Assembly (NCBI GenBank): GCA_002110465.1
Contig: NEED01000070.1
Span: 1 to 52,415 of the forward strand
DNA length: 52,415 nucleotides
Direction: 5' to 3'
Source: an unicellular cyanobacterium SU2
Lineage (GTDB): Bacteria > Cyanobacteriota > Cyanobacteriia > Cyanobacteriales > Microcystaceae
Both the position numbers and the translations under genes were made by a program. Shown in pieces: positions 438-44,570 of the stretch (within the stretch, counting starts at the first letter, position 1; every line of letters begins with the position of its first letter). The notes under the pieces are model-generated. The model was not told where the DNA came from. It saw nothing but the letters and a program-made list of their open reading frames with translations, and did not search any database.

Positions 438-1661
438 ATGACCAATCTTTGGAAAAAAGCTACTTCCCTCTGGAAAAATAAGTTACCTTTTAAAAAAGTT
501 CCCGAAAAAATCCTTCAATGGTTTCAAGTAAGTGACGAACAAGTTGCCAATATTTTAGAAACGGTTCGGGAAAACTTGCCTACCACTGAAGCAATTCTCA
601 TTGGAAAAACTCAATCAGGAAAAAGTTCAATAGTTCGAGGATTAACAAGGGTTTCAGCAGAAATTGTCGGGCAAGGATTTCGTCCCCATACAGCACACAC
701 TAACCAATATGCTTATCCGAGTGATGACCTTCCCTTACTTATTTTTACTGATACCGTTGGCTTAGGAGACGTTAAACAAAATACTAACTCAATTATTAAA
801 GAACTAGGAGAGAATTTACAACAGTCTAAGCATCAGGGTAGAGTTTTAATTTTAACGGTTAAAATCAATGATTTTGCTACCGAAACCTTAGCCCAAGTTG
901 CTCAACAATTACGCCAGTTATTTCCTCAAATTCCTTGTATTCTAGCAGTCACTTGTTTACACGAAATTTATCCCAATCAAATTCAAAATCATCCCGCTTA
1001 TCCCCCTGACATCGAAGAAATAAATCGCCCATTTAATCATCTACAAGAGACATTTAAAGGACTTTATGATCAGGCCGTCTTAATTGATTTTACCCTAGAA
1101 GAAGATGGTTATACCCCTATTTTTTATGGTTTAGAAGCCTTTACAAATGCCCTAGCCCAACAATTACCCGAAGCAGAATCCCAGGCAATTTATCAACTAT
1201 TACAAGGAGAACCAGAACAAAAAATCGGGAGTCTCTATCGGGAAGTTGCACGGCGTTATATTTGGGGTTTTTCTATCGTTGCTGCCACTCTAGCGGCTGT
1301 TCCTCTTCCTTTTGCAACGATGCCAGTTTTGACCGCTTTACAAGTTTCTCAAGTCACTCTTTTAGGCAAATTATATGGACAAATTTTAACCCCTTCCCAA
1401 GCAGGAGGAATTGTTAGTGCGATCGCGGGGGGATTTTTAGCGCAGTCTATTGGACGGGAATTAATCAAATTTATCCCAGGATTTGGTAGTGTTATCGCAG
1501 CGTCTTGGGCGGGGGCTTATACCTGGGCATTAGGAGAAGGGGCTTGTGTTTATTTTGGGGATTTAATGGGAGGGAAAAAACCCAACCCTGAACAAATCCA
1601 AATGGTAATGCAAGAGGCATTTAAAACAGCACAAGAACGCTTTAAAAAACAGAGTTCTTAA
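438..1661 (+). CDS. DUF697-type P-loop GTPase
   Basis: A GTP-binding protein of 407 residues. The P-loop GKTQSGKSS is at residues 56-64 and the Walker B/G3 motif DTVG at 105-108. The usual NKxD/TKxD specificity motif is not clear: the matching strand reads AVTCLH. After residue 265 there is a helical, membrane-seeking region with two hydrophobic stretches (about 273-300 and 322-360) and a GFGSVIAASWAGAYT-type segment, as in the DUF697/YcjF-like C-terminal domain. The role is probably membrane-associated GTPase signalling or remodelling; no specific function is known to me. It lies 47 bases upstream of a second GTPase on the same strand, so the two may form an operon. The ATG start is not preceded by a clear Shine-Dalgarno sequence. 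Confidence 0.8.
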   Translation: MTNLWKKATSLWKNKLPFKKVPEKILQWFQVSDEQVANILETVRENLPTTEAILIGKTQSGKSSIVRGLTRVSAEIVGQGFRPHTAHTNQYAYPSDDLPLLIFTDTVGLGDVKQNTNSIIKELGENLQQSKHQGRVLILTVKINDFATETLAQVAQQLRQLFPQIPCILAVTCLHEIYPNQIQNHPAYPPDIEEINRPFNHLQETFKGLYDQAVLIDFTLEEDGYTPIFYGLEAFTNALAQQLPEAESQAIYQLLQGEPEQKIGSLYREVARRYIWGFSIVAATLAAVPLPFATMPVLTALQVSQVTLLGKLYGQILTPSQAGGIVSAIAGGFLAQSIGRELIKFIPGFGSVIAASWAGAYTWALGEGACVYFGDLMGGKKPNPEQIQMVMQEAFKTAQERFKKQSS

Positions 1662-1708
1662 TCAAGATAAGATAACTATTGTTTGACTAAAAAGTCAACC
1701 TAAAAAAT

Positions 1709-3628
1709 ATGATGAGATTGAAAACTTGGCAATGGGTAATCTTAGCAAGTCCCTTAGTTTTTATTATCAGTTTTATAATTATTGCTGGCGGAATACAAAT
1801 TCATCAATGGGGACTTAATTGGATTTGGGGGGTGTTTATTTTATTGTTATTAGGGTGGCGTTGGTTATTAGTAAAATGGACGCAACCCATGGAACAACAA
1901 CTTGAAGCAATTATTACTCAAGTTACTGAAGATTTAGAAAACAATACGGGTGAAATTTCAACAACTGTTACTGACACCGAAACCGTTAACCAAATTGAAA
2001 CCGTCCTCTACGATATCCTGAAAAAAACCCAAGATGATCCCCCCATGTGGGAAGATTGGCAACTATTTTGGCAACGGTGTCAAACCCTAGTGAGTGCGAT
2101 CGCTCAAATTTATTATCCAGAAATCAAATATCCCCTACTTAATATCTACATACCCCAAGCTTATGGATTAATTCGAGGAACAGTTGATGATGTTGATCAC
2201 TGGATGCAAAAGCTTTCTCCTGTCCTAAATCAAGTCAGTATGGCGCAAGCGTACCAAGCCTATGAAGTCTATCAAAAATTAGAGCCATCTGCCCGAAAAT
2301 TGTGGCGGGTTTGGAATTGGAGTCAGTGGCTATTAAACCCAATTGCTGCGATCGCCAAACAAACCAGTCAAGGCTACAGCCAACAAGCCAATCAACAGTT
2401 ACTGATCAATTTAAGCCAAACTTTTCGAGAAGTTGCCCTTAAAACTTTAGCCCAACAAGCTATCTTACTTTACAGTGAAAAAACGTCTCTCCCGTCAGAT
2501 TTGTTAACTAAAGAAACAAAAAACTTACCGACAGAAAAGACTCAAACTTTGCGAGAAATAATTGCCCAGGCAAAACCTGTTACAGAAATAAAAGAAAAAC
2601 CTGTCAACATTTTATTAGTGGGACGAACAGGTGCGGGGAAAAGTAGTTTAATTAATACTTTATTTAACACAAAACAGGCTGAAGTTGATGTTTTACCGAG
2701 TACCGATGACTTTTATTCTTATTATTGGAATCATCCCACAGGAGAAAGTTTAACCCTTTGGGATACCCCTGGTTACGAACAAATTAACCGTCCTGAATTT
2801 CGTCAACAAGTTTTAGATTATTGTAAAAAAGCTGATTTATTACTATTAGTTACTCCTGCCCTTGATCCTTCTTTAGAAATGGATGTTAATTTTATCGATG
2901 CTGTCAAATCTGATGGATTAAATTTACCAATTATTGTTATTATGACCCAAGTTGATCGTTTACGTCCTATTCGTGAATGGCAACCTCCCTATGATTGGCA
3001 ACAGGGAAATATTCCTAAAGAAATTAGTATTAGAGAAGCAACAAAATACCGCTTACAAGTGTTTGGAGAACAGTGTGAAATGGTTTTACCTGTTGTGACT
3101 CGTGAGTTTAATCTTGAGCGTAAAAGTTGGGGAATTGAAGCCTTAACAACAGCTTTATTAGAGCTAATAGAACCCGCTAAAAAACTACGGTTAGCCCGTT
3201 TTTTTCAAGAACAAGAAGCCCGTTCTGTTGCGGCTGCTAAAATCATTGAAAATTGTACCTTAAGATTAGCGACAACTGAAGGTGTAACGGCTTTATTAAA
3301 AAGTCCTGTCCTGCAATTTATTTCTACTATGACGACAGGTTCTCCCACCTTAGCTCATTTATTAGCAGAACAAATTCCTGTAGAACAATTACCCATTGTT
3401 TTAGGTAAACTACAAATAGCTTACGATCTGTTTTGTTTATTTAGCCCTGATGATCCTAATATTCAAGATTTTAATCTATTAGCTTTGTGGCCTTTATTAT
3501 TAAATCATTCAGGGTCAAGTCAACAAAATGCCTGGGCATTTGGTCAAGCATTGGTAGAATTTTGGACGCAAAATTTAACGGTTGAACAACTTAGAAAACG
3601 ATTTGAAGATTACTTAGAGGTGATGTAG
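1709..3628 (+). CDS. Membrane-anchored Era/YfjP-like GTPase
   Basis: A 639-residue protein with two N-terminal transmembrane segments (about residues 8-28 and 34-53), a roughly 230-residue helical linker rich in W, Q and Y, and then a TRAFAC-class GTPase domain. Visible motifs are G1 GRTGAGKSS (305-313), G3 DTPG (352-355) and G4 TQVD (413-416), all canonical. The last 130 residues are helical and hydrophobic and may be a diverged DUF697-like region. It follows the DUF697-type GTPase by 47 bases, so a functional pair at the inner or thylakoid membrane is plausible. Unlike its neighbour it keeps the specificity motif. The partner or substrate cannot be told from sequence. Confidence 0.8.
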   Translation: MMRLKTWQWVILASPLVFIISFIIIAGGIQIHQWGLNWIWGVFILLLLGWRWLLVKWTQPMEQQLEAIITQVTEDLENNTGEISTTVTDTETVNQIETVLYDILKKTQDDPPMWEDWQLFWQRCQTLVSAIAQIYYPEIKYPLLNIYIPQAYGLIRGTVDDVDHWMQKLSPVLNQVSMAQAYQAYEVYQKLEPSARKLWRVWNWSQWLLNPIAAIAKQTSQGYSQQANQQLLINLSQTFREVALKTLAQQAILLYSEKTSLPSDLLTKETKNLPTEKTQTLREIIAQAKPVTEIKEKPVNILLVGRTGAGKSSLINTLFNTKQAEVDVLPSTDDFYSYYWNHPTGESLTLWDTPGYEQINRPEFRQQVLDYCKKADLLLLVTPALDPSLEMDVNFIDAVKSDGLNLPIIVIMTQVDRLRPIREWQPPYDWQQGNIPKEISIREATKYRLQVFGEQCEMVLPVVTREFNLERKSWGIEALTTALLELIEPAKKLRLARFFQEQEARSVAAAKIIENCTLRLATTEGVTALLKSPVLQFISTMTTGSPTLAHLLAEQIPVEQLPIVLGKLQIAYDLFCLFSPDDPNIQDFNLLALWPLLLNHSGSSQQNAWAFGQALVEFWTQNLTVEQLRKRFEDYLEVM

Positions 3629-36041: not shown

Positions 36042-37166
36042 TTAAGTCCCATTAGTAGGGCGACCCCGATAACGGAATTCATTATCTGTTTCTAAGTGTA
36101 TTTCTTGTCTTAAGTCTCCGAGAACTTCAGGCTCTGATGGCACACTGTTATCGAATAGTTGCGGTAAGATCTCTGACTGTAACGGTGTTGTATCTAAAGA
36201 TTGTAAAGCAGTCTGTAATTTTTTGACGGTGCGACTGATTTCCCCTTCTAGAAGACCTGTCAGCACCTTACCCGCTTTGATCAATAAGCAGATTTCTTGA
36301 CTACAATAAGCCAAGATAATATGACCCTTTTTACCTCGAATAGAAATCATTTCAATATCTTGCCAATTAAATTCATTTTGGGTACTTTGAGCGAGGTAGA
36401 GCATGGTTCCCGATATGATTGACGTACTATGTTCATCTAGTCCGATAGGAACACTAATGGGTTGTCCTTCTTGAGAAACTAAGGCCACTCCTTGAATACC
36501 AATCGGTTTAAGTGCTAGGTCTTGGAGAATGTTATCAATCGTCGGGGTCTTCATAAATGTCCTCTGACTAAACTGTAAACTAGATGGCAAAGGGATTAAT
36601 GCGTGATCAGCGTATTTATGATTCAAAGGATCACGATTAAGACTAGGGTTTTTAATATCTTCAGCAATAAACTGATTAATTAATTGTCCTTGTTGCCAAG
36701 CTTTTGCACTTTGCTCTCGAATATTTCTATTAATACAAACTCCTAAACGAGGTGATTGATAATGACAACTATCAGGAATAATAATGCTTTCTATATTAGG
36801 GGGAGGATTATGTCTATCAATAACAAGAACAGGACCGGCTTCTAAGCAATTCCAGAGAAGATTCAATTGAGAAATATCTAGTCGTCCAACTAAAAAGTAA
36901 CCGATAAAATAAGGAATATGGGAGCGTCCTAAATCATCACTACCATCATTATATAGCCAACCAAACAGAGTCTGTTCAAAAGAAAGTTGCTGAAGATAGA
37001 CTCCTCGATATCCAGCAGCCGGCGGATGATAAGGATTCCAGTATTGATAAACAATGTTTTGTATAAAAGCTTGTTGTATTTCTGGAGAAATGGATGGACT
37101 CACACAAGAGGTAAATCCCACCCTTGAAAAACTGGTATAAATGATTTGCTCAACCAATAAAGGCAT
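36042..37166 (-). CDS. Roadblock/LC7 protein with GAP1-N2-like N-terminus
   Basis: A 374-residue two-part protein. The C-terminal part (about 210-325) looks like a Roadblock/LC7 domain: an initial helix IDNILQDLA, the strand pair GVALVSQEGQPISVP, a central helix and the strands IEMISIRGKKGHIILAYC. Such domains bind small GTPases (as MglB does MglA). The N-terminal 200 residues begin EQIIYTSFSRVGFTSCVSPS, reminiscent of the GTPase-associated protein 1 type-2 N-terminal domain; this match is from memory and unproven. It is 34 bases downstream of the PstS-like gene and in the same direction as a TPR GTPase, so a three-gene GTPase system is likely. No membrane segment is seen. Confidence 0.65.
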   Translation of the reverse strand: MPLLVEQIIYTSFSRVGFTSCVSPSISPEIQQAFIQNIVYQYWNPYHPPAAGYRGVYLQQLSFEQTLFGWLYNDGSDDLGRSHIPYFIGYFLVGRLDISQLNLLWNCLEAGPVLVIDRHNPPPNIESIIIPDSCHYQSPRLGVCINRNIREQSAKAWQQGQLINQFIAEDIKNPSLNRDPLNHKYADHALIPLPSSLQFSQRTFMKTPTIDNILQDLALKPIGIQGVALVSQEGQPISVPIGLDEHSTSIISGTMLYLAQSTQNEFNWQDIEMISIRGKKGHIILAYCSQEICLLIKAGKVLTGLLEGEISRTVKKLQTALQSLDTTPLQSEILPQLFDNSVPSEPEVLGDLRQEIHLETDNEFRYRGRPTNGT

Positions 37167-37200
37167 AGAAAATAAGGATTATCATTACTAAAATTGGCGA

Positions 37201-38235
37201 TTAACGAAGACTAATAAATCCTGCTTTAACAACTAACGCTTGACCCTCATCCGTTAATAAAAGCTTGGCATAAGCCGTTCCAGCTTGCTCATCTACTTGG
37301 CCATTTCGTTTAATAATGACAAATAAACGACGGGTCATGGGATAATCTCCAGTACGAAAGACGTTGTGATTAAGTTGATTACGTTGCTTAGGACAATTAG
37401 ATTGAGAAACGAGAGGGAGTTTATAGGGAGTGACCCATTGTCCTGGTTTTGAGCCTAATGACAAAGGTTTTATCCCACACTGGGGAATAAGTTCTGGGGC
37501 AGATGCATAATAAATTCCTCCTTGATTGTTTGAGACTTTTCTCATCGCTTCGGTTGTGGTAGAAATAATCTGAGTATTTTTTCCAAATTGTTGCCCTAAC
37601 AAAACATTATTAACAAAAAATTCTGCTGTTCCTGATTCTTGTTGATCTTTGCTATAGGGAGTAATTAATAAATCTTGACCACCAACTTGACTCCAGTTGG
37701 TAATTTTTTGAGTATAGATTTTTTGTAATTGTTCAATGGTTAGTCTTGAAACATTCAATTGAGGATGAACCCCTACCACAATAGCATCAATAGCAATTGG
37801 AACTTCTTCTAAGGTAAACCCCATAGATTTTGCTTGTTGATATTCTTTTAAGTTAAGGGGTCGAGAAGACTGGGAAAAAGACAACTGATTATCTAATAGC
37901 ATTTTAATGCCAGTCCCAGAACCTGGATCGCCAGTAATGGGATCGGTGTATCGTAACTTAAATTGAGGTAAGGTTTTTTGAATTATTGGATCAATTTCTT
38001 GTCGAAGAGGAACCCAAGTTGTACTACCACCATAATTAAATAATCCTGAAGGAACATTAGGAACAGACTCAAAGGTTGGGATCGGTGATATTCCTGAAAA
38101 AATTGGTTTAAATCGGGAATTTTTTGAGGGTTTAACGCCAAGTTGCCAAAGTGCTAACCCAGAAACCATACCTAAGATTATACTTGTGATGACAATCGCA
38201 AAAAGTAAGAAGAAAGGTCTAGTTTTGAGTAACAT
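37201..38235 (-). CDS. Membrane-anchored PstS-like binding protein
   Basis: A 344-residue protein with one N-terminal transmembrane segment (about 9-31) and a periplasmic-binding-protein-like domain. PstS-type ligand-binding features are seen: NYGGSTTWVPLR, DPGSGTGIKM, SQSSRPL and ESGTAEFF. No lipobox and no ABC permease or ATPase is nearby, so it is more likely a sensor or receptor than a transport component (inference). The TTG at 38244 is also in frame; the ATG at 38235 is preferred. The Roadblock/LC7 gene follows 34 bases downstream. Confidence 0.78.
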   Translation of the reverse strand: MLLKTRPFFLLFAIVITSIILGMVSGLALWQLGVKPSKNSRFKPIFSGISPIPTFESVPNVPSGLFNYGGSTTWVPLRQEIDPIIQKTLPQFKLRYTDPITGDPGSGTGIKMLLDNQLSFSQSSRPLNLKEYQQAKSMGFTLEEVPIAIDAIVVGVHPQLNVSRLTIEQLQKIYTQKITNWSQVGGQDLLITPYSKDQQESGTAEFFVNNVLLGQQFGKNTQIISTTTEAMRKVSNNQGGIYYASAPELIPQCGIKPLSLGSKPGQWVTPYKLPLVSQSNCPKQRNQLNHNVFRTGDYPMTRRLFVIIKRNGQVDEQAGTAYAKLLLTDEGQALVVKAGFISLR

Positions 38236-38718
38236 ACAATTCAATTATTATTTTTGTATTTATTCTAATAATTGATGATCTTGCCTAATCAATTTTAACG
38301 TTAATAAAAATTATAATGGGTTCTTCTTAAAATATCGAGATATTTCACAATTAATTCCTGAAGTCAAGGGATAGAAATTATCTATTTTTTACCTAAAAAA
38401 GGTATTTTATTACCGAGCCTAAGTGTAGTTTTCACCCACTTTAATCAATTTGTCATTTCACTATATTTAAGTGATGGGACAAATTTAAAGTTACTTATTA
38501 AGACAGGGAATAGGGAACACCGCAAGAGTTAACCGGTCAAGGTTCTAGCTTTTTCACATAAGTTAATCTAGTATTGTCGATTTATGTCCAACTACTTAGT
38601 CTCATATTAACGAAACTAAATCTGGTTTTGATCATTCTTGGTGTTGATGCTCTCACGAGTGAAATCACTCCCCATAATTTAGATAGGGAAAAGCTTCGCT
38701 CTATTGTAAAAAGCCTTC
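38236..38718. other. 483-base intergenic region, no gene seen
   Basis: It lies between the TPR-GTPase gene and the PstS-like gene, both on the minus strand. The DNA is AT-rich with a small palindrome GAGTGAAATCACTC (38657-38670). It is long enough to hold a separate promoter for the PstS-like and Roadblock genes. A frame on the plus strand overlapping the GTPase end starts with TTG and has no family features. Confidence 0.4.
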
Positions 38719-40065
38719 TTAGTCTGGGGTTTTTTGTATTTGACGAACTTTTTCTTTTAACGCCTGGTTAGGAGCAGCTTGTTCAGCTTTACGGAAAAAA
38801 ATTTGTGCTGTTTGATAATCTTGGTCTTCCTTCCGTAGTAATGCTTTATTGACTAAAGCTTGAAAATTTTTTGTGTCTTGGGCAAGAATACGGTCATAGA
38901 GAGTTTCTGCTTTTTCTCTTTGTTCGGTTAGTTTATAAAGTTGTGCTAAATTCAATTGCCAATTGAGATTTTCAGGTGTTATCTCGACAATTTTTTCCAT
39001 AATGGGAATCGCTTTATCTAATTCTTGCAGAGCTAGGTAACGCTCGGCTAATCCGACGAGACTTCCCAAATGCTCAGGATCATCTTTTAAAGTCTCGAGA
39101 TATTCTGTCATTAGGGGATCATTGTTTTGAGATTGTTGATAACTCGAAGTTAACCGACTCCAGGAGAACCAGATTCCCCCGGTAAGAACCAATAATCCTA
39201 AGCTAGATAAAATTACCTTGGTTGAGGTATTCGATAAGATAGCCTTGATTGAGGGTAAACGCCGAGGGGGTGGGGCATCTTGTTTAATAACACTTGCTAA
39301 GGTTTGACTTGATTGAGCACAATGGATAGAGTATAGCTTTTCAATTAGCCACAGAAAAGGACCTTCTGCCCCTGATGCTTCTAGTTGGAAGCGATTTTGT
39401 TGGCGAACAATGGGAATTCCTGTATAAAAACGCTGATATTTAGCCTCTACAGCTTTGAGAGCCTTAATCAAAGGTTGTAAATTTTTCTCGATTTGTAGTC
39501 GGCCAATGGGTTCAGGATTGAGGCGATCGCACTGGGTAAAAATTAAAGCAAAGGGATAGTAATGATGGGTGTGTTGAATTAACGAAGCAATAGCAATTAC
39601 CTGTTGAATAATTTCGTCAAGCGTTGCCAGATAACTTGAATCGGTTGCGAGTTGATACCCATTAATAAAAACACAGCAACTATGGGAATTGAGGATAATT
39701 TCTTGGAAATCAGGATGCTCGAACTTACAAGTTTCTCCAGGGATATCCCAACACCGAAGCTGACAAACAGGAGTCATCTTATTTGTCCAACGGTTACGTT
39801 GTTGAACCCTAAAAAGAAAGTCGGTAATTTTAAGGGTTGGTGGGGGATATTTTCCAGTTTGACTGACATAATCAAGAATTCCCTGTAAGTTTTTTCGATC
39901 TTTATCTTTAGAACAATCTAACCAAAATTCTTTGGAATAAACTTGCCCAAAAATGTAATTTAACTGTACATAAGCCCCTGCCAAAAACACAGTTTTACCA
40001 ACTCCTCGTTGACCTAGACTCAGTATATTAAAAACAGGAATCTTACTTTTAGATAATGCACTCAT
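38719..40065 (-). CDS. P-loop GTPase with membrane segment and TPRs
   Basis: A 448-residue protein. The N-terminal GTPase domain has G1 GQRGVGKT (18-25), G3 WDIPG (106-110) and G4 TQCD (177-180). A single transmembrane helix lies at about 283-301, followed by three or so TPR units (about 320-445) such as AIPIMEKIVEITPENLNWQLNL. The GTPase would face the cytoplasm and the TPR domain the other side, or vice versa. It resembles GTPases paired with GAP1-type proteins. The PstS-like and Roadblock/LC7 genes lie downstream on the same strand. It is divergent from the ammonium transporter gene with 57 bases between starts. Confidence 0.78.
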   Translation of the reverse strand: MSALSKSKIPVFNILSLGQRGVGKTVFLAGAYVQLNYIFGQVYSKEFWLDCSKDKDRKNLQGILDYVSQTGKYPPPTLKITDFLFRVQQRNRWTNKMTPVCQLRCWDIPGETCKFEHPDFQEIILNSHSCCVFINGYQLATDSSYLATLDEIIQQVIAIASLIQHTHHYYPFALIFTQCDRLNPEPIGRLQIEKNLQPLIKALKAVEAKYQRFYTGIPIVRQQNRFQLEASGAEGPFLWLIEKLYSIHCAQSSQTLASVIKQDAPPPRRLPSIKAILSNTSTKVILSSLGLLVLTGGIWFSWSRLTSSYQQSQNNDPLMTEYLETLKDDPEHLGSLVGLAERYLALQELDKAIPIMEKIVEITPENLNWQLNLAQLYKLTEQREKAETLYDRILAQDTKNFQALVNKALLRKEDQDYQTAQIFFRKAEQAAPNQALKEKVRQIQKTPD

Positions 40066-40091: not shown

Positions 40092-40122
40092 CAAGAACTC
40101 TATCTTTTAAATTTTGACACTA

Positions 40123-41631
40123 ATGCCTCATCAAAAGCGAGTTAAATTAAAAAAAATTTTTAGGAAATTTAGTCTAATTTTTTGTCTAATTCCAGGGATA
40201 ATAATTCTATTATTCTCAATAGAAGTCAGTATTGCTCAATCTACTAACGCTGTTACCGAAATTTCTTCAAACAAGTTCTCTGACACCATTCAAGTGGGAT
40301 TAAATACCATTTGGGTTGTTGTGGCAGGATGTTTAATTTTCTTCATGAATGGTGGTTTTGCCATGCTTGAAGCGGGATTTTGTCGCCAAAAAAATACGGT
40401 CAATATTTTAGCCAAAAATTTGATAGCGTTTGCCATAACAACTGTTATTTTTTGGGCGATAGGGTTTGGGTTAATGTTTGGCAACGGCACAGAGTTTTTT
40501 GGACTCCAGGGATTTTTTTTACAGGGAATCGATAATAGCCCTAACATAGGAGAAGCTTATCAAGGCATCTTTGAATCCCTAAGTCAGATCGCCGTTCCCC
40601 TAGAAGGGAAATTTTTCTTTCAATTAGTGATTGCTGGAATTGCGGCAACTATCGTTTCTGGAGCGGTAGCCGAGCGAATTAAATTTTTAGCCTTTTTTCT
40701 ATTTACCCTAGGTTTGACAGGAATTAGTTATCCGATAACCGGTCATTGGATTTGGGGAGGAGGATGGTTATCCCAAATGGGCTTTTGGGATTTTGCTGGT
40801 GGGACAGTGGTTCACAGCGTTGGCGGTTGGGCAGGATTAGTGGGATCGGTTCTTTTAGAGCCTAGAATTGGTAAGTATCGAGAAGGCCTCTCTTTTGCGT
40901 TACCCGGACACAATTTACCCCTGACTACCCTTGGCTGTTTTATTTTGTGGTTAGGATGGTTTGGTTTGAATGGAGGGAGTAGTATGGCAGCAGATTCCCA
41001 GACCATAACCCATGTTCTGCTAACAACCAATATGGCCGCAGCTATGGGGGCAATTGGGGCGACCTTAACCGCTTGGCGATACTTTGGCAAGCCAGACCTA
41101 TCAGTGATGATCAACGGCATTTTAGGGGGCTTAGTGAGCATTTCTGCTCCTTGTCGCTTTGTTACCATTGGTTGGGCAGGGATTATTGGTTTAATCGCTG
41201 GAGTGTTAATGGTTTTATCAGTAGACTTTTTTGACAAAATGCAAATCGATGATCCTGTGGGGGCAATTTCAGTCCATTTAGTCGGGGGAATGTGGGGAAC
41301 CCTCGCTGTGTCTCTTTTTGCCCTAGGTCCAGACGTTAGTCTTAATGGCAATGGTATTCTTTACACCAACGGACCGGCTAGAGGGATACTCCTAGGAGGT
41401 GGCTTTATGGGTTTTCAGCAACTTTTTATTCAACTGTTAGGGTTTGCCTCGGTTAGTTGTTTTACTGTGATTGTCAGTGGGTTGATTTGGTCTTTAATCA
41501 GAATGACCGTAGGCTTAAGGGTCTCATCAGAAGCCGAACTTAAGGGACTAGATCTCAGTGAACATGGACTCCATGCCTATCATGGTTTTGTTCTAAAGCA
41601 CGATGTTAACCAGAAACAGAGAGGATTGTAA
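40123..41631 (+). CDS. amt: Ammonium transporter, Amt family
   Basis: A 502-residue membrane protein with a cleavable signal-like N-terminus (about 9-40, IEVSIAQS) and 11 expected transmembrane helices. The twin-histidine pore residues are visible in GGTVVHSVGGWAG and SVHLVGGMWG, and the NGGFAMLEAGFCR and GHWIWGGGW stretches are typical of Amt. It imports ammonium across the plasma membrane and is usually controlled by PII and NtcA. No GlnB gene is adjacent. An in-frame TTG lies 9 bases upstream; the ATG at 40123 is preferred. Confidence 0.93.
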   Translation: MPHQKRVKLKKIFRKFSLIFCLIPGIIILLFSIEVSIAQSTNAVTEISSNKFSDTIQVGLNTIWVVVAGCLIFFMNGGFAMLEAGFCRQKNTVNILAKNLIAFAITTVIFWAIGFGLMFGNGTEFFGLQGFFLQGIDNSPNIGEAYQGIFESLSQIAVPLEGKFFFQLVIAGIAATIVSGAVAERIKFLAFFLFTLGLTGISYPITGHWIWGGGWLSQMGFWDFAGGTVVHSVGGWAGLVGSVLLEPRIGKYREGLSFALPGHNLPLTTLGCFILWLGWFGLNGGSSMAADSQTITHVLLTTNMAAAMGAIGATLTAWRYFGKPDLSVMINGILGGLVSISAPCRFVTIGWAGIIGLIAGVLMVLSVDFFDKMQIDDPVGAISVHLVGGMWGTLAVSLFALGPDVSLNGNGILYTNGPARGILLGGGFMGFQQLFIQLLGFASVSCFTVIVSGLIWSLIRMTVGLRVSSEAELKGLDLSEHGLHAYHGFVLKHDVNQKQRGL

Positions 41632-43007: not shown

Positions 43008-44570
43008 ATGATTGAGTTTTTATCGATTCCCTATAGTCCTGAATTGCTGCAAAGGACTGGAGAACATTTAATTCTAGTTTCCATCGCCATGACGGTAGCA
43101 ATTTTGATAGGAATTCCTCTCGGAATTTTGATTACCCGATACCCTAAATTAGCCAATCCCATTCTTACCATTGTCAACAGTATTCAAACCATTCCTAGTT
43201 TAGCCATGTTTGGCTTTTTAATTACAGTTCCTTTGATTGGAGGAATTGGGAAAACCCCTGCCATTTTTGCTTTAATTCTTTACGCTTTACTTCCTATTAT
43301 TCGTAACACTTATATTGGAATGAAACAAGTCAAAAAAGGACTTAAAGAAGCAGGAAAAGCTATGGGAATGACAGGTCAACAAATCCTAATATTAATTGAA
43401 ATCCCCCTAGCTTTAGGAGTTATTTTAGCAGGAGTAAGAGTCTCTACAGTAATTTGTGTGGGAATTGCAACTATTGCTGCGGCAATTGGTGGGGGAGGCT
43501 TAGGGGTTTTTATTTTTCGAGGGATTTCAACGGTTAATAATCAATTAATTTTAGCAGGGGCAATTCCGTCAGCGTTAATTGCTTTAGTGGCTGATTGGGG
43601 AATTGGCCAGTTAGAAAAATCCTTTACCCAGTATGAAAAACCACGCCCAAAATCAAAAAAACGAATTTCAATTATTTTAGGGGCAGTTGGGGTGATTTTA
43701 TTTAGTCTTTTCGGGCTTTTATACCAGCAAGTATTCCTAGGAAATCAAGGGAGTGGAACCATAGTGATCGGCTCTAAAAATTTCACAGAAAGTCTGATTT
43801 TAGGAGAAATAATTGCCCAAAATATTGAGTATAATACTAATATTGAAGTAGAACGTCAATTCAATTTAGGCGGAACATTTATCTGTCACGAAGCAGTCAA
43901 AAACGGAAACATTGATGGTTATGTAGAATATACAGGAACTGCTTTTACAGCAATTCTTAATCAAAAACCCATTAGCAATCCTGAAAAAGTCTACAAAAAA
44001 GTCAAAAAATCTTATGATAAAAAATTTAACTTAGAAGTAATGCCTTCTCTAGGATTTGAAAATACTTATGCTATTGTAATTCGTCAAGAAGATGCTCAAA
44101 AATATCAGATAAAAACTATCTCTGAAGTGGGAAAATATACTCCTAAATGGCAAGCTGGTTTTGGCCATGAATTTTTAGCCAGAGAAGATGGTTATCCAGG
44201 GTTAGCTAAAACTTATAACTTAAATTTTGCCCGTCCCCCTAGAGCAATGGATTTAGGCTTAATGTATCGCGCCTTAGCCGATAAAAAAGTGGATTTAGTG
44301 GCGGGAAATTCCACCGATGGCTCAATTCCCGTGTTGAAATTAAATATTTTAGAAGATGATCAACAGTATTTTCCCCCTTATGAAGCGGTTCCTGTTTTCA
44401 ATCAAAAAACCCTTAAAGAATATCCCCAATTAAAAGCAGTAATCACAGAATTAGCAGGAGAAATTTCTGCGGCAGAAATGCAACAATTAAATTATCAAGT
44501 AGACGATCGCCAAGGATCAATTACAGAAGTGGTACAAAACTTTTTAACTAAGAAGGGGTTAACGCCTTAA
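43008..44570 (+). CDS. Osmoprotectant ABC permease/binding-protein fusion
   Basis: A 520-residue fusion. Residues about 1-205 form an ABC permease of the ProW/OpuCB type with five or so helices and the EAA-type loop LKEAGKAMGMTGQQILILIEIPLAL. After a linker and one more transmembrane helix (about 222-242) comes an OpuAC/OpuCC/ProX-type substrate-binding domain (about 248-518) starting IVIGSKNFTESLILGEIIAQ. The substrates are expected to be glycine betaine, choline or related quaternary amines. No ATPase gene is adjacent, so it must be encoded elsewhere. Start ATG 43008. Confidence 0.88.
   Translation: MIEFLSIPYSPELLQRTGEHLILVSIAMTVAILIGIPLGILITRYPKLANPILTIVNSIQTIPSLAMFGFLITVPLIGGIGKTPAIFALILYALLPIIRNTYIGMKQVKKGLKEAGKAMGMTGQQILILIEIPLALGVILAGVRVSTVICVGIATIAAAIGGGGLGVFIFRGISTVNNQLILAGAIPSALIALVADWGIGQLEKSFTQYEKPRPKSKKRISIILGAVGVILFSLFGLLYQQVFLGNQGSGTIVIGSKNFTESLILGEIIAQNIEYNTNIEVERQFNLGGTFICHEAVKNGNIDGYVEYTGTAFTAILNQKPISNPEKVYKKVKKSYDKKFNLEVMPSLGFENTYAIVIRQEDAQKYQIKTISEVGKYTPKWQAGFGHEFLAREDGYPGLAKTYNLNFARPPRAMDLGLMYRALADKKVDLVAGNSTDGSIPVLKLNILEDDQQYFPPYEAVPVFNQKTLKEYPQLKAVITELAGEISAAEMQQLNYQVDDRQGSITEVVQNFLTKKGLTP

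Follow-up and report, generated by a model that had tools for sequence, protein, structure and literature searches.

Genes and domains at the locus

The window analysed here, a stretch of 52,415 nucleotides from the unicellular cyanobacterium SU2 (contig NEED01000070.1 of assembly GCA_002110465.1), contains three adjoining minus-strand genes. They encode a GTPase with a transmembrane (TM) segment and TPRs (38719-40065), a PstS-like periplasmic binding protein (PBP; 37201-38235) and a protein in which an N-terminal domain, here called the N-domain, precedes a Roadblock/LC7 domain (36042-37166). All three open reading frames (ORFs) were found where a first-pass annotation had placed them, with one correction of its coordinates: the PBP gene likely starts at the ATG at 38235, the first TTG lying at 38244. 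According to our best reading, the locus represents a real, recurrent and modular cyanobacterial variant of the DO-GTPase systems, whose function we infer. Its constant core is the GTPase together with the N-domain, the Roadblock domain and the PBP being interchangeable or optional attachments. The PBP and N-Roadblock genes are separated by 34 base pairs (bp), whereas 483 bp lie between the GTPase and PBP genes, so that a single three-gene operon is not established. Promoter and terminator scans gave signals no denser than in shuffled sequences, and no sign of a foreign island was found, the locus having a G+C content of 0.374 and 0.365 per 2 kilobases (kb), within the window range of 0.345-0.442.

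The GTPase (448 residues) appears DO-GTPase2-like. It was modelled with AlphaFold2 from 22 aligned sequences (pLDDT 81.5), the G and TPR domains having high confidence and the TM region low. The G domain (residues 1-262; 39280-40065) is recognised by its motifs GQRGVGKT, WDIPGE and TQCD, all readable in the translation, and by residues invariant in 37 family members: G18, R20, G21, G23, K24 and T25 of the P-loop (residues 18-25; 39991-40014) and P109, G110 and E111 of WDIPGE. The glutamate after G3 in the latter motif is probably, in our own reading, the Walker B glutamate of the DO-GTPase systems of PMC7159879. A TM segment (residues 284-302; 39160-39216; mean hydropathy 1.74) is followed by a TPR domain (residues 317-445; 38731-39117), which several Pfam TPR families, the model and PDB matches support, in agreement with the first-pass description of a P-loop GTPase with a TM helix and TPRs. 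The 50 PDB matches listed for the model are mostly TPR proteins, together with entries for an H-Ras complex, Rab2A and elongation factors. Of 38 family TM proteins, 34 are more positive on the G side of the membrane segment (two against, two ties), which by the charge rule places the G domain inside, so that the TPRs should face outside.

The Pfam scan of the whole product revealed no GTPase family above its cut-off. PF19993 (DO-GTPase2) was matched by 35 of the 37 family G domains at E<=10 (best 4.7e-10). When ten members were scanned singly, two passed the curated cut-off of 27 bits (L106 with 34.6 and L114 with 28.8 bits), six fell below it at E<=0.01, and L104 and L130 gave no match at that E. 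These scores suggest a family that borders Pfam DO-GTPase2.

The protein of the third gene (374 residues) consists of the N-domain (residues 1-170; 36657-37166), which has no Pfam family and proved to be a constant companion of the GTPase in searches of the order, and of a Roadblock/LC7 domain (residues 208-326; 36189-36545). Robl_LC7 (PF03259) matches residues 220-298 with E 6.2e-7 and 29.5 bits (cut-off 23), and in an AlphaFold2 model from 39 aligned sequences the N-domain has a pLDDT of 80-98 and the Roadblock domain is well modelled. All 50 PDB matches listed for this model, which are dominated by its Roadblock part, bear titles of Roadblock/LC7 proteins or of complexes that include such proteins (best E 4.3e-7), spanning Asgard archaea, Streptomyces, MglB, p14/MP1, Ragulator and dynein roadblock. 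The C-terminal Roadblock/LC7 domain proposed earlier is thus borne out by profile and predicted fold, and by analogy it may bind or regulate a GTPase here. The C-terminal tail carries a conserved motif, YRGR (36060-36071), predicted as a strand, which is exact in 10 of the 21 N-Roadblock proteins of the order and varied to YPGR or YRGN in two more.

The predicted elements of the N-domain follow the order strand-strand-helix-strand-strand-strand-helix, which we take to resemble longin and Roadblock folds. A sequence relationship between the N-domain and Roadblock was considered and rejected on profile comparison (hhalign 0.1%), and the PDB sequence search with the N-domain gave a best E of 0.7. 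The start EQIIYTSF had suggested the GAP1-N2 domain, an identity that found no significant profile support: PF20013 matched none of 49 N-domains at E<=10 and nothing in the window's own genome. In 194 genomes of the phylum it gave no match above cut-off; 13 weak matches appeared at E<=1, and no N-domain locus is listed among them. Comparison with a single GAP1-N2 sequence, L176, yielded 2.9% by hhalign over 11 columns around YTSF and an hmmsearch score of -3.1 bits, under the best of 2000 shuffles (2.9 bits). YTSF stands near the start of this true GAP1-N2 protein too, and the shared start, with a GR-containing stretch seen by eye, is suggestive only. No relatives of GAP1-N2 were found in phages and viral contigs. 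After the N-domain of the window protein, Pfam matched Robl_LC7 alone; GAP1-M and GAP1-C, we assume, both have Pfam models.

The product of the middle gene (344 residues from the ATG at 38235) was described as a membrane-anchored PstS-like binding protein, which is consistent with its N-terminal TM segment, with PBP_like_2 (E 1e-28) and with the PstS family TIGR02136, whose match has an E of 1.2e-35 but reaches only 123.1 bits, below its cut-off of 206.6; TIGR00975 gave 32.5 bits (cut-off 205). An ABC partner was said to be missing, and indeed a Pfam scan of 28 window proteins revealed no Pst-type one. The sole ABC permease among these proteins is a fusion of a permease with an OpuAC binding domain (43008-44570).

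The PBP also has an altered loop, YSKDQQESGT (37627-37656), in place of the SR....GGT of its unlinked relatives. In an alignment of 31 PBPs, from which matches of 200 residues or fewer were excluded, SR....GGT is present in all 10 unlinked proteins (from L062-L070, with flanks of roughly 1.2-1.5 kb used to judge linkage). The 21 system-linked ones have arginine at the loop column in four cases and one column later in five, SGT in 11 and GGT in none; the window protein has lysine with SGT. SSR is conserved in 30 of the 31, and two solved relatives with printed alignments have arginine with SGT. The loop arginine of PstS-like proteins presumably holds the anion. Since the linked proteins mostly do without it, phosphate is an unlikely ligand; judging from these residues, the ligand has probably changed, and loss of ligand binding altogether is also conceivable. 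In the PBP tree the linked proteins stand at two places. The fused ones group with the PBPs of G444 and of the window (79/91, weak), and the remaining eight separate PBPs lie next to a single unlinked paralogue (95/97), so the tree needs two changes, gains or losses.

Co-occurrence and exchange of modules

Alignments of the N-domain and of the G domain were searched in 388 genomes of the window's order, and the 194 phylum genomes were searched with a single window protein; genomes and loci are cited by G and L numbers. Between 2 and 11 sequences went into each hidden Markov model (49 for the L176 comparison), and TM calls are by hydropathy only. In the phylum, matches covering the N-domain were confined to the window's order, and matches to Roadblock alone were wider. 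The N-domain is present in 45 of the 388 order genomes. The G domain matched 72 of them at E 0.001, of which 36 scored above 190 bits and the best of any other genome 50 bits. As many as 35 of these 36 genomes possess the N-domain (Fisher p 1.4e-39, uncorrected for kinship), the exception being G485, a 79%-complete assembly. At the genus level, all 18 genera with the GTPase belong to the 21 of 149 that have the N-domain (hypergeometric p 2e-20, again uncorrected). When contigs of one genome per species were scanned with 11 N-domains, 36 loci were obtained, all cyanobacterial by title and including Nostoc, Anabaena, Scytonema, Brasilonema, Microcystis, Coleofasciculus, Leptolyngbyaceae and Pseudanabaenaceae; no plasmid relatives of the N-domain of L007 were found.

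For the neighbourhoods, 49 loci of the order were fetched (50 rows, G005 being listed twice; G471 left out). Flanks are about 1.5 kb in L002-L010 and L030, and some loci stop at contig ends, so distant neighbours may be missed. The N-domain is followed by Roadblock in 21 loci, by a TM segment and PBP in 13, by a TM segment and WD40 in 10 and by other modules in five. In 34 of the 49 loci a GTPase gene is no more than 5 kb away, on the same strand in 29; by type, this concerns 14 of 21 Roadblock, 5 of 13 TM-PBP, 10 of 10 TM-WD40 and 5 of 5 other proteins. Roadblock is only one of several modules, and it is the N-domain that stays with the GTPase. A tree of 71 N-domains requires at least 11 changes of the C-terminal label against a minimum of four, which indicates that the modules have been exchanged. 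Of the three genes expected together, those of the GTPase and of the N-domain protein do keep company, while the full trio is rare.

The view of the PBP as part of the GTPase module stands in part: it is fused to the N-domain or lies within 3 kb of it in 16 of the 49 loci, but it is also paired with the N-domain where there is no GTPase. A separate PBP gene within 3 kb occurs in the window, G444, G332 and, besides its fusion, G358. The PBP match is longer than 200 residues in 10 of the 13 TM-PBP cases, split in one (G341, L113) and partial in two (G372 and G376). Fusions without a GTPase occur in G005, G232, G246, G260, G274 and G287, with the partial matches in G372 and G376; a further fusion is found in L189, and TM-PBP genes stand beside N-domain-TM genes, with no GTPase in the stretch, in L203, L204, L206, L207, L209 and L212.

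The clusters of genus g100 (L130, L131, L133, L135 and L159) combine the TPR-GTPase and a Peripla_BP_6 protein anchored by a TM segment (E 3e-42 in L131, the others assigned by ORFs of like length and start). Except in L130, they also contain an nSTAND1-pentapeptide protein (1.6e-83 in L131; L133, L135 and L159 by ORF length and start). An N-Roadblock protein is encoded in L130, L131, L133 and L135, with V4R present in the two that were scanned (L130 and L131); L159, from G485, has no N-domain.

Several arrangements were observed outside these patterns. An N-domain is fused to a caspase domain (Peptidase_C14, 1.4e-12) and a C-terminal TM segment in L193 (8001-10091), and N-Roadblock genes directly follow an MMR_HSR1-DUF697 GTPase gene in L136 (5593-8147) and L137 (4513-6906), with Pfam run on L136 only. 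Stand-alone Roadblock genes near a Ras-like GTPase gene, mostly with a DUF4388-like gene too, were seen in the nine loci inspected among L012-L028 (Pfam on L021 only). In the window's genus, G183 (L029) retains N-Roadblock remnants with stops, which indicates decay of the module among close relatives.

A plus-strand gene for an Amt ammonium transporter (40114-41631), matching PF00909 at 5.7e-113 with 378.1 bits (cut-off 23.2), lies beside the GTPase gene in divergent orientation. Some match to this transporter exists in 47 of 50 genomes of the family, and a distinct subclade above 600 bits (59-68% identity, the window's own excepted; next best 489 bits) in 10: G000, G080, G133, G396, G410, G435, G444, G447, G471 and G482. 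Each of these 10 also belongs to the 18 genomes of the family that match the N-domain (in G471 with a broken frame), an overlap with a chance of about 4e-6 by our own arithmetic, uncorrected for kinship. In eight of them the transporter gene adjoins the GTPase gene, its remnant or the N-domain gene. G000, G080, G133, G410 and G444 have it in divergent orientation to the TPR-GTPase gene, G396 next to a GTPase remnant of 41 residues, and G435 and G447 in convergent orientation to N-Roadblock. In G471 and G482 neither N-domain nor GTPase was found within the stretch fetched around the transporter gene. This co-occurrence is the best hint of the output of the module, though only a hint.

Relation to known GTPase systems

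DO-GTPase systems with GAP1-N2 proteins are presented in PMC7159879 as membrane-proximal conflict systems. The main lineages given are actinobacteria, firmicutes, planctomycetes, verrucomicrobia and chloroflexi, a list from which cyanobacteria are absent, and the word roadblock does not occur in the paper. The cyanobacterial module is similar in having a PF19993-matching GTPase, a glutamate after G3, TM segments and extracytoplasmic modules, as well as a partner linked to the GTPase whose C-terminal modules vary. It differs in that PF20013 does not recognise its N-domain and in that Robl_LC7 is the only domain after it in the window protein; FNIII partners were looked for within the scanned proteins.

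Conservons (PMC13343842) likewise bring together a membrane sensor, a Roadblock protein and a GTPase, and have accessory proteins where the membrane component is without an extracytoplasmic sensory domain. They use a small Ras-like CvnD and a histidine-kinase-like CvnA, in contrast to the larger GTPase with TM segment and TPRs found here, and neither CvnA nor CvnD was found among the Pfam matches of the trio. MglA and Rup GTPases are the subject of PMC4316618, in which Rup systems with a membrane protein are likened to conservons. The Roadblock fold is shared with MglA-MglB, and MglB structures are among the PDB matches listed, but the GTPase of the trio has no MglA/Ras match above cut-off and its Roadblock domain is fused to another one. 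As to PstS and PBP_like_2, the window PBP is of the same sequence family and differs by its TM anchor, by lysine in place of the loop arginine and by the missing Pst-type ABC partner.

Another set of cyanobacterial loci, L140-L153, contains DO-GTPase-like genes, in pairs or singly, accompanied by a third gene whose product starts FLVSRN or YGRTYEVDF and carries TM or WD40 segments; three of these products were scanned, with no Pfam family above cut-off. These loci resemble the module by a distant GTPase match and by the TM/WD40 third gene, and differ in that there are often two GTPases and that the FLVSRN partner is not alignable with the N-domain; a common origin of the two was considered and rejected (hhalign 1%). 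Within the window itself, two adjoining genes at 438-3628 match MMR_HSR1 GTPases (6e-7 and 4.7e-14) and form a second GTPase pair. No title or abstract start among those listed from the open-licence literature describes the GTPase and N-domain module, and no open-licence paper combining periplasmic binding protein, GTPase, cyanobacteria and roadblock was found.

A possible transmembrane signalling module

We consider it somewhat more probable than not that the three genes form a transmembrane GTPase signalling module. The GTPase would place its G domain in the cytoplasm, cross the membrane by one helix and expose its TPRs outside, and the constant N-domain would be its cytoplasmic partner, possibly by direct binding. 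The N-domain would carry or adjoin an exchangeable input, here the membrane-anchored PstS-like protein and Roadblock, the latter serving as a dimerisation or GTPase-binding platform. An extracytoplasmic ligand, probably not phosphate, might then alter the state of the GTPase, if the signal runs in this direction, and the adjoining Amt paralogue is a likely output or co-sensor in the window's lineage, should ammonium transport be linked to the module. The signal would thus pass from the PBP to the GTPase, and Roadblock would control the latter, as the first-pass annotation had modelled. The topology of the N-domain-TM proteins would likewise have the N-terminus inside, for which the charge rule gives 14 for and 5 against among 20 N-domain-TM-WD40 proteins.

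Several observations weigh against this reading. The same rule gives 4 for and 7 against among 14 N-domain-TM-PBP proteins, and 1 for and 6 against among 10 separate PBPs. The G domain of the window itself reaches only E 0.15 and 12.1 bits with PF19993, and GTPase, separate PBP and Roadblock form occur together in just 2 of the 49 loci (the window and G444). Kinship inflates the co-occurrence p-values. No strong GTPase match exists in 10 of the 45 N-domain genomes, of which G095 and G097 keep a short decayed GTPase stretch beside the N-domain gene and the other eight, of family f3, carry N-domain-TM proteins fused wholly or partly to a PBP. In G471 the N-domain frame is broken next to the GTPase, and only one of seven genomes of the window's genus matches either alignment, which shows the module to be dispensable.

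Among the alternatives, the one that survives best, although we regard it as doubtful, is that Roadblock serves some other Ras/MglA-like GTPase and that the N-domain alone regulates the DO-GTPase-like protein, which is partly compatible with the signalling module. The Roadblock domain is 26-34% identical to eight stand-alone cyanobacterial Roadblock proteins, a GTPase-like gene stands near by eye in nine such loci (Pfam-confirmed in L021 as ATP_bind_1 and Ras), N-Roadblock follows an MMR_HSR1-DUF697 GTPase gene in G247 and G261, and 20 of the 28 N-domain proteins of the order without Roadblock keep a DO-GTPase-like neighbour; however, so do the two thirds of N-Roadblock genes counted above (14 of 21).

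It is unlikely that the genes form a counter-invader system of the DO-GTPase/GAP1 kind, in which the GTPase and N-domain would provide a threshold, with the exchangeable modules as sensors of invaders and the variable domains as effectors. The nearness of the family to DO-GTPase2, the switch of such systems in PMC7159879, would suit this explanation, as would the caspase fusion of L193 and the nSTAND1-pentapeptide gene of the g100 clusters. Across the three window proteins, however, PADLOC gave one match at E<=1 (PrimPol, 0.052, in the TPR region), and Pfam revealed no effector domain in the trio. Furthermore, the N-domain has no GAP1-N2 profile match, 13 and 10 of the 49 N-domain proteins carry solute-binding and WD40 modules, respectively, and the link with Amt would fit nutrient signalling better. 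Least probable is a chance neighbourhood of two separate units, one of PBP and N-Roadblock, the other of GTPase and Amt. Although the unequal gaps, the PBP-N-domain pairs without a nearby GTPase and the placement of GTPase-Amt and N-Roadblock on different contigs in G133 and G080 would agree with it, the GTPase and the N-domain co-occur in nearly all strong-GTPase genomes and within 5 kb in most loci.

Returning to the transmembrane signalling module, a bolder extension, which we offer with low confidence, is that it exemplifies a class of cyanobacterial one-TM GTPase receptors in which an extracytoplasmic binding protein, a type-I PBP or a WD40 propeller drives a membrane GTPase via a longin/Roadblock-like N-domain, in one family controlling or reading a dedicated ammonium transporter. 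Such receptors would be the prokaryotic equivalent of GTPase platforms for nutrient sensing, of which Rag-Ragulator is an example. Little is known of bacterial GTPases to which signals come from across the membrane, and Roadblock beside a DO-GTPase-like protein is a combination not mentioned in the parts of the literature consulted. With its GTPase, an unchanging partner and sensors that have been swapped in nature, so compact a module would make the path from a solute outside the cell to a GTPase directly testable, and the co-inheritance of the module with a particular Amt paralogue suggests which nutrient to look at first.

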